This document shows, in pieces, positions 4,624-16,679 of a DNA stretch of 55,105 bases (positions are counted from its first letter, which is position 1; each line of letters begins with the position of its first letter). The notes under the pieces were generated by a model that saw only the letters and a list, made by a program, of their open reading frames with translations, had not been told where the DNA came from and made no database searches. A program made the translations under genes and the position numbers. Source of the stretch: a virus. Where the stretch lies: IMG/VR virus record IMGVR_UViG_3300046543_000191, positions 1 through 55,105 of that record, one strand, 5' to 3'.

Positions 4624-4980
4624 ATGACTGATTCACCATGGGGTAGACCCATTACCGGCGAACCGATCGACTACGTGCCGATCGACGCGCCAGCCACCGC
4701 TATCACACCCACGATTTTTACGGCGCCGATCCTTCGCCGGGCGCTGGTCGCCGCCTTAATTGCCGCCTTGTTAGTCAGCGGTTTCGCCTTTCCGGCCTTC
4801 GGTGCTGGCATCATTGCAATTTCCGCAATGGTCGCAGTGATTTGGGGCGCTGACAAGCTTGCCGACTATCTCAACGAAAAGGAGGGCGTCACGACCACCG
4901 CGAACGGTCCCGATCCGTTCAGCTGGTGGGTGACCCTTGTGGCTTTGGCCTTAATCCTCGGCGTCATCCTTATTATCTAG
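4624..4980 (+). CDS. Three-pass membrane protein, 118 aa
   Basis: ATG at 4624 follows GAGGAGACTTTTGCC. Hydrophobic segments lie at about residues 38-58 (LRRALVAALIAALLVSGFAF), 60-80 (GAGIIAISAMVAVIWGA) and 98-118 (WWVTLVALALILGVILII). The short N-terminal tail is cytoplasmic if Arg residues set topology. I do not recognise a family. It lies within the early operon directly before the recombination ATPase, so it is unlikely to be the lysis holin; superinfection exclusion or membrane anchoring are possible. Confidence 0.7.
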   Translation: MTDSPWGRPITGEPIDYVPIDAPATAITPTIFTAPILRRALVAALIAALLVSGFAFPAFGAGIIAISAMVAVIWGADKLADYLNEKEGVTTTANGPDPFSWWVTLVALALILGVILII

Positions 4981-4991
4981 GAGGGAAATGT

Positions 4992-5807
4992 ATGGCAATT
5001 TCTTGGGAAGAGCTCAAGGATACGTCCGATACCGATCCGCCGATCACGACGATCTACGGCGGCGCTAAGCTGGGAAAAACGACACTCGCCTCTGAGTTCC
5101 CGTCGCCATATTACTGCCGAACCGGCGAAGGCGAACGGCAGAGCGCAGGCACGCCGATGAAATCTTTCGGTGTCTCTGACAACTATGGTGACGTTCTCGA
5201 CCAGATCGAGTTCATGCTTGAAGCGGAACACGATCGACGCACGTTCGTGCTCGACGCTCTCGATGGACTCGAGGTGTTCATCAACGCCGAGGCCTGCGCT
5301 CGCAATGGCTGGGCCGACATCGAGGAGCCGGGATTCGGCAAGGGCTACGCGGCGGCTCACGCCATCTGGCTTGAGTTCATCAAGAAGGTGCTGGCGCTGA
5401 AGAAGGCTGGTTTCTACGTCGTGCTCATCTCGCACGTCAAAGCCAAGACCGTTCCAGGCGTCACGACTGACAGCTATCCGCGGTACATGCTCAACCTGCG
5501 CGACGACGCCGGCAGTGCGGTATGCGATGCGTCGGATTTGATTGGCTTCCTGCATCAGCGCGTGTCGATCCAAAAGGAGGATCTTGGCTTCAAGAAGACA
5601 GCGAAGCGCGGTTCGGGCGGCGGCGAAGTCAATATCGCCGTGCAGGAGCGGCCCGGCTTCATCGCGGGTAACAGGTACCAAATCCCCAAGGCTATCCTTG
5701 AATACAAGCAGGGGCAGGGGTTTGCGGTGTTGAACACCTACTTCCCTCCGCAGCCTGACGTTGTCACGGCGGAAGTCGAACCTGATGAGCAGGACGAGGC
5801 GGCATGA
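4992..5807 (+). CDS. Sak4-like RecA-fold ATPase (phage recombinase/annealing)
   Basis: 271 residues from the ATG at 4992, which follows TAGGAGGGAAATGT. Walker A is YGGAKLGKTTLASEF (residues about 22-36), Walker B-like FVLDALDGLEVF (about 83-94), and the third strand is AGFYVVLISHVKAKT. This is the AAA_24/Sak4 group, small Rad51-like ATPases that promote single-strand annealing with a phage SSB. A DUF669 protein, the usual partner, follows at 6035. The C-terminus is DEQDEAA and overlaps the next ATG. The pair is likely the phage homologous recombination module. Confidence 0.8.
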   Translation: MAISWEELKDTSDTDPPITTIYGGAKLGKTTLASEFPSPYYCRTGEGERQSAGTPMKSFGVSDNYGDVLDQIEFMLEAEHDRRTFVLDALDGLEVFINAEACARNGWADIEEPGFGKGYAAAHAIWLEFIKKVLALKKAGFYVVLISHVKAKTVPGVTTDSYPRYMLNLRDDAGSAVCDASDLIGFLHQRVSIQKEDLGFKKTAKRGSGGGEVNIAVQERPGFIAGNRYQIPKAILEYKQGQGFAVLNTYFPPQPDVVTAEVEPDEQDEAA

Positions 5808-6034: not shown

Positions 6035-6676
6035 ATGGCCAAGATCGGCAACAACTACGAGGCAGATTTCGAGAACACCGAGAAGCAGGGCGGTGGCGGC
6101 GGTATTCTTCCGCACATGTACGCCCAACTTCAGGCGGAAGCCATCAATCTGCCTGAGACCAAAGACCAGAAGGGCTTTCAGGCTGAAATCACGTTCGAGG
6201 TGATCGCGCCCGAGGAATTCAAGGGGCGCAAGTTCTGGGCCTATTGGACCATCGTCCATTCCGATGGCTACCAGCACGGCGCCTACAAGTACGGCAAGCC
6301 TATGTTTGACAGATTCGGTCGTGCAGTCGGCGAGGAGATCACGGCAGACACCGATACCGACGATCTTCTGTTCAAATCGTTCGTTGCCGAGGTCGGGATT
6401 CAGGTCGGCAACGCCAATCCTGCTGGTGGGTTCTACAAGGACAAGAACCAAATCGAGCGCTTCTTTTATACCGATGACGCGGCCAAAGAGCCCGTTCCGG
6501 AACTCGGTGTCATCGGCGACGGCACGCAAGGCAAGAAGCGCAACGAGGATCGACCAACACCCGCCAACGACAACAAGCCAGCACCTGCACAACGTGCTGC
6601 TGCGAATAACAACACGCGTCCTACGGCACAATCTGCGGCTGCTACGCCTGGCCGTCGGCCTTGGGGCAGCAAGTAA
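6035..6676 (+). CDS. DUF669-type single-strand DNA binding partner of Sak4
   Basis: 213 residues; ATG at 6035 after GAAGGAGACTTGC. Residues 1-150 match the DUF669 pattern (MAKIGNNYEADFENT, KGFQAEITFEVIAPEEFKGR, FWAYWTIVHSDGYQ, EVGIQVGNANPAGGFYKD). These proteins accompany Sak4 ATPases and are thought to act as phage SSBs. The C-terminus is a disordered Pro/Ala/Asn-rich tail with PANDNKPAPA and ends RRPWGSK, with no acidic SSB tip. A DDDIPF tip is instead found on the helicase at 10805. Confidence 0.75.
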   Translation: MAKIGNNYEADFENTEKQGGGGGILPHMYAQLQAEAINLPETKDQKGFQAEITFEVIAPEEFKGRKFWAYWTIVHSDGYQHGAYKYGKPMFDRFGRAVGEEITADTDTDDLLFKSFVAEVGIQVGNANPAGGFYKDKNQIERFFYTDDAAKEPVPELGVIGDGTQGKKRNEDRPTPANDNKPAPAQRAAANNNTRPTAQSAAATPGRRPWGSK

Positions 6677-7606: not shown

Positions 7607-7631
7607 AGCAACACCACCAGAGGAGATTTTC

Positions 7632-8696
7632 ATGAAGCTCACCATTCAGCGTGCCGACCTGGCGCGCGTCATTACGAACGTCGGCCGTGTCGTCGAGGCC
7701 AGAAACACCATCCCGATCTTGAGCAATGTTCTGCTGAACGCCAAGGATGACACGCTCACCGTCTCCGGTACTGATCTCGATATCCTGGCCACGGCAAGCG
7801 CACCGGCCAAGATCGCCAAGCCTGGCAGCCTCACAGTCAGCGCCAAGCTGCTCGGTGACATCGTCAAGAAGGCAGGTTCCGACGATATCTCGATCGAAAA
7901 GAAGGGCGACAGTCTCATCTTCGCATCCGGCCGAAGCAAGTTCACCCTTGCCACGCTGCCGGCATCGGACTTCCCCGATATCGCTGGCGCCGGCGAATTC
8001 ACGACGGAGTTCGATATCGACCTTGCGGCATTCTTCGCGCCGGTCTCATTCGCGATATCGAGCGAAGAGGTGCGTTATTACCTCAATGGCGTCTTCTTCA
8101 TTGGCACGGAAGAAAGCACGATCGCGGTAGCGACTGATGGTCGCCGCCTTGCCAAGAACGTAGGCGACGCCGGTCCAATCTTCGCCGGCGTCATCGTTCC
8201 GCGCAAGACCGTCAGCCTTCTGCCGAAAGGCACCGTCACCGTTGCAGTTTCCGAATCCAAGATCCGGATCACGGCCGGTGACTTCGTCATGACGTCGAAA
8301 CTGGTCGACGGAACGTTTCCGGATTACGAGCGTGTCATCCCCAAGAGCAACGACAAGTTCATTTCGGTGAATCGAGACGAGTTCATGAAGGCTTCCGATC
8401 GCGTGTCGACGGTTAGCAGCGAGCGTGGTCGTGCTGTCAAGCTGAGCATCGCGCCGGGCTCAGTTACTTTCACCGTCAGCAATCCAGATTCGGGCAGCGC
8501 GACCGACGAAATAGAGGCAGAATACAGCGGCGAACCAATATCGATCGGCTTCAATGCCGCGTATCTCCGCGACATGTTCGGCGCGATGCCATCCGGCCAG
8601 GTCACGATTGCTCTCGCCGATAGCGGCTCGCCGGGGCTCTTCACGTCGGCCGGCTTTGCGGGGCTTACGCTCGTCGGCATGCCGATGCGGGTGTAG
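7632..8696 (+). CDS. dnaN: DNA polymerase III beta subunit (sliding clamp)
   Basis: 354 residues from the ATG at 7632 (AGAGGAGATTTTC upstream). The three clamp domains are clear: TIPILSNVLLNAKDDTLTVS (domain 1), VRYYLNGVFF and VATDGRRLAK (domain 2), DGTFPDYERVIPKSNDKFI and the C-terminal LVGMPMRV (domain 3), the last being the standard end of bacterial DnaN. It would form a ring that tethers polymerase to DNA. No DNA polymerase catalytic subunit is encoded apart from the prim-pol protein, so the clamp likely recruits host Pol III or Pol IV. Confidence 0.95.
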   Translation: MKLTIQRADLARVITNVGRVVEARNTIPILSNVLLNAKDDTLTVSGTDLDILATASAPAKIAKPGSLTVSAKLLGDIVKKAGSDDISIEKKGDSLIFASGRSKFTLATLPASDFPDIAGAGEFTTEFDIDLAAFFAPVSFAISSEEVRYYLNGVFFIGTEESTIAVATDGRRLAKNVGDAGPIFAGVIVPRKTVSLLPKGTVTVAVSESKIRITAGDFVMTSKLVDGTFPDYERVIPKSNDKFISVNRDEFMKASDRVSTVSSERGRAVKLSIAPGSVTFTVSNPDSGSATDEIEAEYSGEPISIGFNAAYLRDMFGAMPSGQVTIALADSGSPGLFTSAGFAGLTLVGMPMRV

Positions 8697-8981: not shown

Positions 8982-9241
8982 CCAAACCTCACGAGACAAT
9001 GACGACCGAGGGCATATGCCCTCGGTGCGGCGACGGTGCGTGGCGAGATAGCGTCGATGTCGGCGTTGGTGTTATCCATGGCCCATACGGTTGCGCGTGC
9101 GGATGGTCGGAATCTGAGGAATACGATCTAGAATTCAGAGGAGGTCTTCAGGCCAACGGTTCGTACATCGATATGCAAGGCGGCCTTTTGCCAGCCAGCA
9201 ATCCCATTGCCAGGATGCTGGCACGTGAGGCCGGCATATAA
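8978..9241 (+). CDS. Zinc-ribbon protein, 87 aa
   Basis: Residues 13-46 hold CPRCGDG and CACGW, forming a CxxC...CxC zinc ribbon. The remainder is acidic with no recognised fold. The start overlaps the previous stop and its TAA overlaps the next ATG by one base. Such small zinc ribbons are common in phage replication operons, and the target is unknown. Confidence 0.65.
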   Translation: MTKPHETMTTEGICPRCGDGAWRDSVDVGVGVIHGPYGCACGWSESEEYDLEFRGGLQANGSYIDMQGGLLPASNPIARMLAREAGI

Positions 9242-10182
9242 TGGCGCCCATCCCAAAGGTCACGCCATCCACGCTCCGCGCTGTGCAGGAAGCCATCGAA
9301 GCTGGTCACGACGAGTGGGAGTCCGTCGGCGTTCCTGCCGGCGACATCGGCGTAGAATGCGACCGCGCAGTCTGGCTGGCCTTTCGGCGCGCGTCTGTGC
9401 CGGAAGTCATCACTTGGCAGAAGCGTCGCATCTTCGAACGCGGCAACATCGAGGAAGAACGCCTACTAGATCTCCTCCGAATGGTAGGCGTGAACGTCTG
9501 GGGCGAGCAGGACCGAGTGCGCGCTTGCGGCGGACATCTGCGAGGCAAGATCGACGGCCGCGCTCTAGGGCTGCTGGAAGCGCCCAAGAAAGAGCACGTC
9601 GTCGAATGCAAGTCAGCCAAACAGGAAGTGTTTGCCAAGGTCAAAAAGCACGGAGTGCAGAAAGGCAAACCGGAGCATTACGCCACCTTCCAGTTCTACA
9701 TGCACGGCCTAGGCATCGATCGCGTCTACTACATGATGTCGAACAAGAACGACGAAGATCTGCATTTCGAGCGTGTGGAGTACGATTTTGAGTATGCGGC
9801 GCGCGCCGTCGCCAGGATCGAGCGAATCATCAACATGCCAGAGCCTCCGTCACGGCTTTGCACCAAGCGTGACGACTTCCGCGGCGCGTTCTGTAGGCAA
9901 GCCGCCGTCTGCTGGGGCGAGATGATGCCGCGCGCCCACTGTCGGTCGTGCCTCCACAGCACTCCGCTGATGGATGGCAATGCCGGATGGGATTGTGCGC
10001 GGTGGCAAAAGCCATTGTCGCTCGCAGAGCAAGACGCCGGCTGTCCGGCTCATCTGTTCATTCCAAGCATGCTCGCTGGATTTGAGCAGATAGACGTCGA
10101 CCAAGAGAACGAGACGATCACCTATCGCAGACCGGACGGCACGACATACGTCGACGGTGCAACACAAGCGGAGGCGACGTGA
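9241..10182 (+). CDS. PD-(D/E)XK nuclease, RecB/Cas4-like exonuclease
   Basis: 313 residues. The nuclease core is GKIDGRALG (Asp, about residues 102-110) and HVVECKSAK (ExK, about 120-128), with an upstream RGNIEEERLLDLL helix. Cysteines cluster in the C-terminal half (CTKRDDFRGAFC, CWGEMMPRAHCRSC, WDCARW), so an iron-sulphur or zinc centre as in Cas4/AddB is plausible. Phages use such exonucleases to make single strands for annealing by Sak4-type proteins. It shares the transcript with the recombination genes. Confidence 0.75.
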   Translation: MAPIPKVTPSTLRAVQEAIEAGHDEWESVGVPAGDIGVECDRAVWLAFRRASVPEVITWQKRRIFERGNIEEERLLDLLRMVGVNVWGEQDRVRACGGHLRGKIDGRALGLLEAPKKEHVVECKSAKQEVFAKVKKHGVQKGKPEHYATFQFYMHGLGIDRVYYMMSNKNDEDLHFERVEYDFEYAARAVARIERIINMPEPPSRLCTKRDDFRGAFCRQAAVCWGEMMPRAHCRSCLHSTPLMDGNAGWDCARWQKPLSLAEQDAGCPAHLFIPSMLAGFEQIDVDQENETITYRRPDGTTYVDGATQAEAT

Positions 10183-10568: not shown

Positions 10569-10805
10569 ATGGCACTCTATGACTTTGACCATATGCAATT
10601 ACGAGTTGATCATGCGCGCCGTGCACTTGAAGACATTTCATTTTTGGAGAAGGCATTCATCTGGTCAAGAACGCCGCAGGGAGGCGCTTATTGGGAAATC
10701 CAAGCGCGTGACGGGCTAACCGACGAAGCGCGTTCCACCATTGCGTACATGGTTGCTCAGGCAATCGAGATTGAAATCTTTGGCGGCATGCGCAGGGCCG
10801 CCTGA
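10569..10805 (+). CDS. Hypothetical protein, 78 aa
   Basis: ATG follows AAGAGGAGACGAT. The sequence is MALYDFDHMQLRVDHARRAL, then a mixed stretch and a helix ending FGGMRRAA. No recognised domain. Its TGA overlaps the helicase ATG by one base, so it is coupled to the helicase and may work with it. Confidence 0.6.
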   Translation: MALYDFDHMQLRVDHARRALEDISFLEKAFIWSRTPQGGAYWEIQARDGLTDEARSTIAYMVAQAIEIEIFGGMRRAA

Positions 10806-12592
10806 TGCCATTCAATCCCCGATATTATCAGGTCGAGGCCGTCGATTCCATTTTCAACTATTGGAACGAAGAGCCTGGTCATCCGCTTGTCGATATGGCC
10901 GGTGGCTCTGGCAAGAGCGGCACAATGGCTATGGTCATCAAGCGCCTTGTTGAGGGCTGGTCCGACATGCGCGTTCTGTCATGCGTGCACGTCGAAGAGC
11001 TTGTCGGAGACAATTTCAAAGAATTTATAGGGATGTGTCCCTTCGCCAACGCTGGAATTTATGCCGCCAGCCTTGGGCGCCGCGATCGGCAATCACAGGT
11101 TATATTCGCCCAGCTTCAGACGATCTGGGATAAGGCGCGAGAAATCGGCCACATCGATGTGATGATTATCGATGAGGTCCACCTTGTGCCGAACGATGAC
11201 AATACCATGTACCGCAAGCTTATCGCTGCGCTCATGGAAATCAATCCCGACATGAAGCTGGTTGGCTTCACAGCCACGCCGTATCGTCTGGATTCAGGCC
11301 GCCTTGATGAAGGCGATGACCGCCTTTTTGATATTGTGGTCTACACCTACAGTCTGGCGCAGGGGATTGAAGACGGTTACCTCAGTCGACTGACCAGCAA
11401 GCCGAGTGACGTGAAGTACGATATGGCCGGCGTACACCGACTTGGCGGCGACTTCAAAAAGTCAGATCTGGCCAAGGCGACCGACAAAGAAGAGCTAACG
11501 CGGGCCGCAGTTCTCGAAATCATGCGCTATGCCGAGGAGGAAAATCGCCGCACAGCAGTTATTTTCTGCAATGGCATCGACCACGCCACCCACGTTCGCG
11601 ATGAAATTCGCGCCCACGGCAAATCATGCGAAGTCTTGAGCGGAAAGACCCCCAAAACCGAACGCCGCAGGATTATCGCTGACCTGAAGGACGGCCGCCT
11701 ATGGGGCTGCACAAATGACAATGTCTTGTCGACGGGCACGAACATTCCCTGCATCGATCTCGTCGCCGATATGGCGCCGACCGAATCCACGAACAGATAC
11801 GTGCAGCGGGCTGTCCGCGGCACTCGCGTCGTTTGGCCGGCTGGCTTCAATCCGGACGCGACGGACGCTGATGGCAGAAAGGCCGCTATTGCACGCGGTT
11901 CGAAGCCCAATTGCCGGTACATGAACTTTGCTGGGAATATCGAGCGACACGGCCCGGTCGATTGCGTGCAGCCAAAGAAGCCAGGCAGTGGAACAGGTGA
12001 GCCGCCAATCAAGATCTGCCCGACTGACGTGGCAGATCCGACCGGAAAGTTTGGTTGTGAGGAAATATGCGCCGCTAGCGCCCGCATCTGCCCGAACTGC
12101 GAATATCAGTTTGTGTTTGAGGAAAAGCCGAAGTTTACGGCTCGACCGACTGATGTTGCTATCTTGGGTACGGTTGCCGAAGAAGATTGGCGGCGCGTGA
12201 CCGATAGGCGCTTTTTGAATCACCCTGGCAAGGACGGAAAACCCGACAGCGTAAAGACGGTTTTTGTTACAGGCTACACTGCCATCAACAAATGGTACGC
12301 GCCGGCGGCCGGTGGAAGAGCCAGGTCGGACAGTGATAGGTTTTGGAACGCGCATGGTGGCAGTCGACCCTTCCCCAAAACAGCGTTGGAGTGGCTGGAA
12401 CGGCAAGGGGAGTTGCGCGACACCGACGAGATCAGCGTTGAGCCGTCCGGTAAGTTTTGGAACGTCGTCGATTATCGCGTCGGCGCAACAAGGCCGGCCA
12501 ACGACAATGTGCCGGCTCCCGCCAACGACAATGTCGAGCGTCGTGGCATGGCCGATTGGGAACGGCAAATGGACGACGACATACCATTCTGA
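10805..12592 (+). CDS. SF2 DEAD/DEAH-type helicase with zinc module and SSB-like C-terminal tip
   Basis: 595 residues. Motif I is AGGSGKSG (about residue 32), motif II IIDEVH, motif III FTATPYR, and motif VI YVQRAVRGTR. Residues about 398-437 carry a four-Cys module (KICPTDVADPTGKFGCEEIC then ARICPNCEY). Two ANDN motifs (PANDNVPAPANDNVERR) lead to the C-terminus QMDDDIPF, whose last six residues equal the tip of E. coli SSB that recruits repair and replication proteins. It likely unwinds branched or forked DNA during phage replication or recombination. An operator element begins three bases after the stop. Confidence 0.85.
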   Translation: MPFNPRYYQVEAVDSIFNYWNEEPGHPLVDMAGGSGKSGTMAMVIKRLVEGWSDMRVLSCVHVEELVGDNFKEFIGMCPFANAGIYAASLGRRDRQSQVIFAQLQTIWDKAREIGHIDVMIIDEVHLVPNDDNTMYRKLIAALMEINPDMKLVGFTATPYRLDSGRLDEGDDRLFDIVVYTYSLAQGIEDGYLSRLTSKPSDVKYDMAGVHRLGGDFKKSDLAKATDKEELTRAAVLEIMRYAEEENRRTAVIFCNGIDHATHVRDEIRAHGKSCEVLSGKTPKTERRRIIADLKDGRLWGCTNDNVLSTGTNIPCIDLVADMAPTESTNRYVQRAVRGTRVVWPAGFNPDATDADGRKAAIARGSKPNCRYMNFAGNIERHGPVDCVQPKKPGSGTGEPPIKICPTDVADPTGKFGCEEICAASARICPNCEYQFVFEEKPKFTARPTDVAILGTVAEEDWRRVTDRRFLNHPGKDGKPDSVKTVFVTGYTAINKWYAPAAGGRARSDSDRFWNAHGGSRPFPKTALEWLERQGELRDTDEISVEPSGKFWNVVDYRVGATRPANDNVPAPANDNVERRGMADWERQMDDDIPF

Positions 12593-15985: not shown

Positions 15986-16311
15986 GCGACATTTTCGGAA
16001 GCAGACTTTACCGCACACCCTATCTTGTCATTCCGCGGCTTGCGCTTGAAGCCATGCCGGTCGAATGGCAGGAGCGTTTCGAAACTCTACTGAAAGAGGC
16101 TGATGATGCTGGCATCAAAACACCTTCATATCTCGTATTTCGCGATCTGTCTGACGGCAATCCCGATGGGATCAAAGGGTGCAAGCAGGTCAATCGCGGC
16201 CAATGGCGAAACGAGCCGTTCTATCGACTGACGGGCGGCTGGCATGACGATCCTTGGGCAAATTATCGCCACGGTGACGCTAGTGCCCTTTCATCTGAGG
16301 TAGCAGCATGA
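15982..16311 (+). CDS. Hypothetical protein, 109 aa
   Basis: ATGA overlap with the methyltransferase. Sequence features include YLVIPRLALEAMPVEWQERF, ETLLKEADDAGI and an aromatic C-terminal part (GGWHDDPWANYRHGD) ending EVAA. No recognised domain. Coupled to the methyltransferase and to the zinc protein that follows. Confidence 0.65.
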   Translation: MSDIFGSRLYRTPYLVIPRLALEAMPVEWQERFETLLKEADDAGIKTPSYLVFRDLSDGNPDGIKGCKQVNRGQWRNEPFYRLTGGWHDDPWANYRHGDASALSSEVAA

Positions 16312-16679
16312 CCAAGTTACCCGGAAAGCCTGCCGTACCTTTCACACCCACCGTGGACACCGACGGCAACCCGACTAACTGCTTTTGCTGTGGCATGCGT
16401 CCAATCGGCATTGGCGTCGGCGCCGGCAAAGATCCTGGCTATCTGTGCAAGAGGTGCATCGTGGCAATCGACGACTACAAGAAGATCCGACGCCTTGACG
16501 ATTTCGAACTCGCCGCACTCGACGCCGGCGTTGATGCCGTGGGCGAATTCATCGAGTCCAAGGGCAACCTGACCGACCTGGCGCATTACGACGAGCTCGA
16601 TCAGCGCCTGCTGGTCAAGGCTGCGTGGGAGGGTTGCGCCCGCGGCCTTCGTGCAGCCTTGAAGGATGCGCCGTTTTGA
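16308..16679 (+). CDS. Zinc-binding hypothetical protein, 123 aa
   Basis: Residues 24-48 carry CFCCGMRPIGIGVGAGKDPG and CKRC, a two-CxxC zinc site. The rest is helical (RRLDDFELAALDAGVDAVGE) with AAWEGCARGLRAAL near the end; similar sequences occur in rhizobial phages, but I cannot name the family with confidence. The start overlaps the preceding stop (ATGA) and its TGA overlaps a TTG start for the C5 methylase. Confidence 0.65.
   Translation: MTKLPGKPAVPFTPTVDTDGNPTNCFCCGMRPIGIGVGAGKDPGYLCKRCIVAIDDYKKIRRLDDFELAALDAGVDAVGEFIESKGNLTDLAHYDELDQRLLVKAAWEGCARGLRAALKDAPF

Follow-up and report, generated by a model that had tools for sequence, protein, structure and literature searches.

A RadD-like phage helicase ends in an SSB-type C-terminal tip that recurs on other proteins of its module

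Results

We identified a phage-encoded RadD-like helicase that ends in DDDIPF, a tip that resembles the extreme C-terminus of bacterial SSB (SSB-Ct). Bacterial SSB is a hub that collects DNA repair and restart enzymes via a short tail. Judging from sequence comparisons, the helicase tip is probably a docking peptide of the SSB-Ct type, held on a flexible tether and displayed by the phage module to host SSB-interacting proteins. A helicase without the tip usually has a neighbouring phage protein that ends in Pro-Phe. The pattern suggests that the phages present a copy of a host docking signal.

The helicase is a 595-aa SF2 protein encoded on the plus strand at positions 10805-12592 of the window, by which we mean the whole virus record (IMG/VR IMGVR_UViG_3300046543_000191, 55,105 nucleotides). 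It matches the DNA helicase family phrog_16 in PHROGs and the ResIII and Helicase_C domains in Pfam, and motifs GGSGKS, DEVH, TATPYR and QRAVRGTR are all intact. A Pfam scan found no SSB domain (OB fold) in the helicase, and PF00436 has no match anywhere in the window record. The sequence-only reading had described the protein as ending in DDDIPF behind a disordered ANDN linker, and the translation, the word positions and the structure prediction confirm this description. The C-terminus runs through two ANDN words (12497-12508 and 12521-12532) and then into DWERQMDDDIPF. The last residues read ...RPANDNVPAPANDNVERRGMADWERQMDDDIPF, and the open reading frame terminates in ANDNVPAPANDNVERRGMADWERQMDDDIPF before a TGA stop at 12590-12592. 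AlphaFold assigned pLDDT values below 50 to residues 562-595, so it is fair to describe the tail, including the linker at 12497-12571 (plus strand), as predicted to be disordered. The last 17 residues of the helicase from a relative, L240, also fall below 50. The tip itself (12572-12589, plus strand) combines acidic residues, a hydrophobic residue, Pro and a C-terminal Phe with a free carboxylate, as in SSB-Ct, and the low-confidence region ahead of it provides the flexible linker expected of such a peptide. In the single-chain AlphaFold models of both the window and L240 proteins the tip is undocked on its own protein, an observation that carries little weight.

The word ANDN (GCNAAYGAYAAY) is common elsewhere in the window, with 16 occurrences between 3342 and 53979 against 0.3 expected. 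Sites include 6563, 7399, 12497, 12521, 15950, 16688 and 18188. In the genes checked the word lies in frame, mostly near C-termini, and its codons differ from site to site. A Shinella genome has its ANDN words clustered around a related prophage.

The proposal that the tip matters depended on its conservation in homologous helicases, and a lack of conservation was not observed. The tip is present in 67 of 70 distinct helicases from close relatives (96 of 100 ORFs from Rhizobium phages, Sinorhizobium phages and IMG/VR contigs). Among the 70, Pro at -2, Phe at -1 and Ile or Val at -3 are each found in 69, and Asp or Glu at -5 in 68. The sole exception at -1 is Tyr, and residues upstream of -7 vary. 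Exceptional endings include DDIQF in L093 and SPTIPF in L004; the L020 helicase is frameshifted, and its second fragment ends DDEIPF. Among relatives, the tip Pro is encoded by each of the four possible codons, and the gene is closed by each of the three stops. Over the last six codons pN/pS was 0.22, and over the last two it was 0.015; the ten codons upstream of the tip gave 0.84, in a C-anchored comparison that leaves the linker unaligned. The Asp, Ile/Val, Pro and Phe of the tip are under purifying selection.

We compared the tip to the SSB proteins of the presumed host, which was assigned from the relatives of the window. E. coli SSB ends MDFDDDIPF, and an acidic run followed by a terminal Pro-Phe is the signature of SSB-Ct. 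Helicase tips and presumed-host SSB tips fall into a common class, [ML]DD[DE][IV]PF. Together with conservation and selection, this supports the original assignment of the tip to the SSB type. In the few prophage-host pairs found, the tip and the SSB encoded by the same genome did not covary residue by residue. A strict pattern was found roughly once per genome in 121 genomes from the presumed host order, against 0 matches for the reversed control; 28 of 30 sampled matches were SSB. In the lysogens L025 (Shinella) and L026 (Pseudohoeflea), both of which encode RecO and Pol III chi, [DE][DE]x[IV]PF-stop matched only SSB and, in one lysogen, the prophage helicase. Scanning IMG/VR for DDDIPF-stop returned at least 120 ORFs. 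Pfam assigned 30 of 116 listed ORFs to SSB, six to RadD-like helicases, three to DUF669, one to ERF and one to DnaB; among the matches listed, RadD-like helicases thus outnumber every other Pfam-named enzyme class. The conservation in relatives and the controlled whole-genome scans exclude chance as the origin of the tip.

We built a FastTree phylogeny from the core sequence of 161 phage helicases, of which 88 are tipped. At least eight gains or losses are needed to explain the distribution, and seven changes are forced by well-supported branches, with some long branches unsure. Many tip-less helicases terminate where the core ends. Tips from isolate phages include DPDVPF (Pantoea), EDDLPF (Acinetobacter), FEDIPF (Roseobacter), DFDDDIPF (Pseudomonas) and DPDYVPF (Escherichia). 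A comparison of the window with L022 showed approximately 94% DNA identity upstream as far as 10830 and approximately 92% from the first ANDN codon at 12497 to the stop, and blastn gave no match from 10830 to 12497. This unmatched body between matching flanks indicates that the helicase body was exchanged and the tail stayed. A comparison of L001 with L005 gives the same picture, with the helicase body replaced between conserved flanks. One cassette junction in the window/L022 pair coincides with the ANDN-coding repeat. In another helicase, at L018:4789-7644, the P-loop is interrupted before TGKS by an intein that contains a LAGLIDADG homing endonuclease.

The phage's own SSB-like protein does not carry the tip. 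This DUF669-type protein (6035-6676, plus strand) matches phrog_2300 (E 4.8e-34), and its relatives are annotated DUF669, with the Pfam DUF669 model itself not reached at 0.01. It ends RRPWGSK, and none of 129 phage SSB-like proteins at the 161 helicase loci ends in PF, which agrees with the initial claim that the tip is missing here. DUF669-type proteins of these phages have a conserved RPWG(S/A/N)K or PPW end that is possibly a docking signal of their own. DUF669 proteins that end in DDDIPF occur elsewhere (L201, L176, L148, L231, L204, L207 and L124). In L004 (phage RHph_X2_26), which has the SPTIPF helicase tip, the end of the DUF6511 protein is lost (REGDYI) and the DUF669-type protein contains an internal YDDDIPF.

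Other proteins of the module also end in Pro-Phe. In the window, the DUF6511 protein (phrog_19707; 16308-16679, plus strand) ends ALKDAPF. The sequence-only reading had noted this DAPF end as a weaker echo of the helicase tip. The end is present as described. A PF end is shared by 80 of 91 DUF6511 proteins, often in a weakly acidic form (EAPF), and the family is better counted among the tip bearers. In other phages, DUF6511 proteins with the ends EVPF, ECPF or DPPF come immediately after a tip-less helicase. The isolates RHEph04, Baskent_P4_1 and Ssp-JY40 have tip-less helicases and a small gene at or near the helicase 3' end that finishes DIPF, EIPF or EVPF. Zinc-type proteins of phrog_23504 (63-117 aa) overlap or come after tip-less helicases, with a PF end in 18 of 20 adjacent cases, and were not found beside any of the 107 tipped helicases that had enough sequence downstream. 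The DnaN-type sliding clamp of the window (7623-8696, plus strand; Pfam) has no tip, and the Cas4-domain exonuclease (9241-10182, plus strand; PHROGs) belongs to the same module. In related phages, eight processivity factors (phrog_947 type) finish in DDDIPF or a similar sequence; these tipped clamps are found at L253:3081-4247 and in L254, L258, L261, L262, L263, L273 and L189.

We counted PF ends over 161 distinct helicase loci, which take in related phages and so are not independent events: 91/161 helicases, 80/91 DUF6511 proteins, 19/21 zinc-type proteins and 8/50 clamps, and 3/3653 background ORFs (0.08%). At least one PF bearer is present at 144 of the 161 loci; the helicase is tip-less at 70 loci, and a different bearer is present at 53 of these. 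No bearer was found at 17 loci, where some stretches are short. A strict rule of one tip per phage holds for the helicase against the zinc-type protein or tipped clamp, which accompany a tipped helicase at 0 of 91 loci, and fails for DUF6511, present with a tipped helicase at 53 of 91. The independent evidence is that the same end occurs on four families between which no relationship was detected. Because the zinc-type protein, the clamp and DUF6511 also bear it, the tip is better assigned to the module as a whole than to the helicase.

We examined the relationship of the helicase to RadD. E. coli RadD is the closest solved protein (phmmer 1.2e-38) and the best Foldseek match of the AlphaFold model, over the whole chain (3e-35); the SF2 motor core and the full-length RadD fold are both present, as are zinc-type cysteines (C405/C418/C429/C432). 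The protein scores 185.7 bits against the RadD equivalog NF053632, for which the cut-off is 720, and we therefore call it RadD-like rather than RadD. Three arginines of the RadD SSB-Ct pocket, R21, R49 and R145, correspond to N, E/D and K in the window protein, which thus departs from the RadD pocket. Most of the phage helicases have another residue in place of R21 and Asp in place of R49, and K/R145 alone is retained. These replacements are equally frequent in tipped and tip-less helicases, and we dropped the idea of a role reversal in which the tip was gained where the RadD pocket was lost.

Discussion

The best reading of the tip starts from the phage's own SSB, which has none; on this reading, that is why the replication/recombination module displays one. 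Phage ssDNA would be coated by a DUF669-type SSB without the host tip, so host SSB-interacting proteins (e.g. RecO, Pol III chi, PriA, RecG and RecQ) would miss it. A tip on another protein of the module could bind the SSB-Ct pockets of these host proteins, and the bound proteins would be brought to phage forks or recombination intermediates, or titrated. It is an even call whether the tip is, more broadly, a portable module-level recruiting signal in phages with a tip-less SSB that has moved between unrelated scaffolds several times. That SSB-Ct is a docking motif, and that RadD binds it, is already known. In the open-licence literature, outside which most subscription papers lie, we found no report of a phage RadD-like helicase with an SSB-Ct tip and no description of the tip spread over unrelated proteins of one module.

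Of the rival explanations, the strongest is built-in activation, in which the tail, fused to the helicase or supplied by an adjacent small protein, activates the same or a neighbouring copy of the helicase without host SSB. It ranks first among the alternatives because the pocket in which E. coli RadD binds SSB-Ct lies in motor domain 1, and either SSB or SSB-Ct raises the ATPase activity of the enzyme (PMC10238739). The similarity of the phage helicase to RadD extends along the entire protein, which would allow the tip to act in cis. Tips lie on RadD-like helicases or on genes that overlap or adjoin them. The idea is weakened by the replacement of two of the three pocket arginines, with or without a tip, and by the tips on separate clamp proteins, which it leaves unexplained. 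The tail is also undocked, with pLDDT below 50, in two AlphaFold models. We consider built-in activation unlikely.

Less likely still is that the receptor is a phage protein and that the tip links the helicase to annealing inside the module. The most plausible receptor would be the neighbouring Sak4-like ssDNA annealing protein (phrog_124; 4926-5807, plus strand), by analogy with phage HK620, whose Sak4 binds ssDNA coated with its cognate SSB only if the last six residues of that SSB, NDYPPF, are kept (PMC5928155). Sak4, the SSB-like protein, the Cas4 exonuclease and the helicase are neighbours in the window and in isolate phages. However, the conserved RPWG/PPW end of the SSB-like protein is a more natural ligand for Sak4, and a private phage pair would have no need for a helicase tip that closely matches host SSB.

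We think it very improbable that the tail serves to bind a sliding clamp or is some other signal unrelated to SSB-Ct. The window encodes its own clamp, and L004, the one isolate checked with a degenerate tip, has no clamp matching that of the window in its whole record. Against this, the tipped-helicase phages JG054, Vid5, HD01, CRP-902 and Dru_SM1, from hosts other than Rhizobium, also lack a clamp matching the window's, which leaves a dependence on the phage clamp weak. Some clamps are themselves tipped, and the acidic run with terminal Pro-Phe points to SSB-Ct. Finally, the idea that the ending arose by chance, has no function and passed by descent to a few close phages has only the relatedness of the phages in its favour. 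It is refuted by the strong purifying selection on the tip, its repeated change on the tree, its retention while the helicase body was exchanged and pattern controls near zero.

If display of an SSB-Ct-type docking peptide is the correct reading, the phage taps or blunts the SSB hub via a helicase, a clamp or a small adapter, without using an SSB. This would offer a testable answer to how phages whose own SSB is tail-less engage host repair proteins, and a possible function for DUF6511 and phrog_23504. The tips would also be natural tethered ligands for studies of the SSB-Ct interaction, which is under study as a drug target as well (PMC5872125).

The phage tip can be compared to three known systems. 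It shares with bacterial SSB-Ct the acidic run, Ile/Val, Pro, terminal Phe and a disordered linker, and belongs to the tip class of presumed-host SSBs. The bacterial tip sits on an OB-fold ssDNA binder behind a Gly-rich linker, whereas the phage tip sits on a helicase behind an ANDN-rich one. E. coli RadD (YejH, an SF2 protein with a zinc ribbon; PDB 6jde, 7r7j, 8h5y and 8h5z) resembles the phage helicase in its SF2 motors and zinc-type cysteines. RadD ends HELRG and has neither tail nor tip, whereas the phage helicase has both; RadD receives the SSB tail through a pocket from which the phage proteins mostly differ at two of the three arginines. The HK620 SSB (DUF669)/Sak4 pair is likewise a phage recombination module that attracts a partner by an SSB-like tip (PMC5928155). 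In HK620 the SSB bears the tip, whereas in the window the SSB-like protein ends in RPWG and the helicase or another protein of the module bears it.
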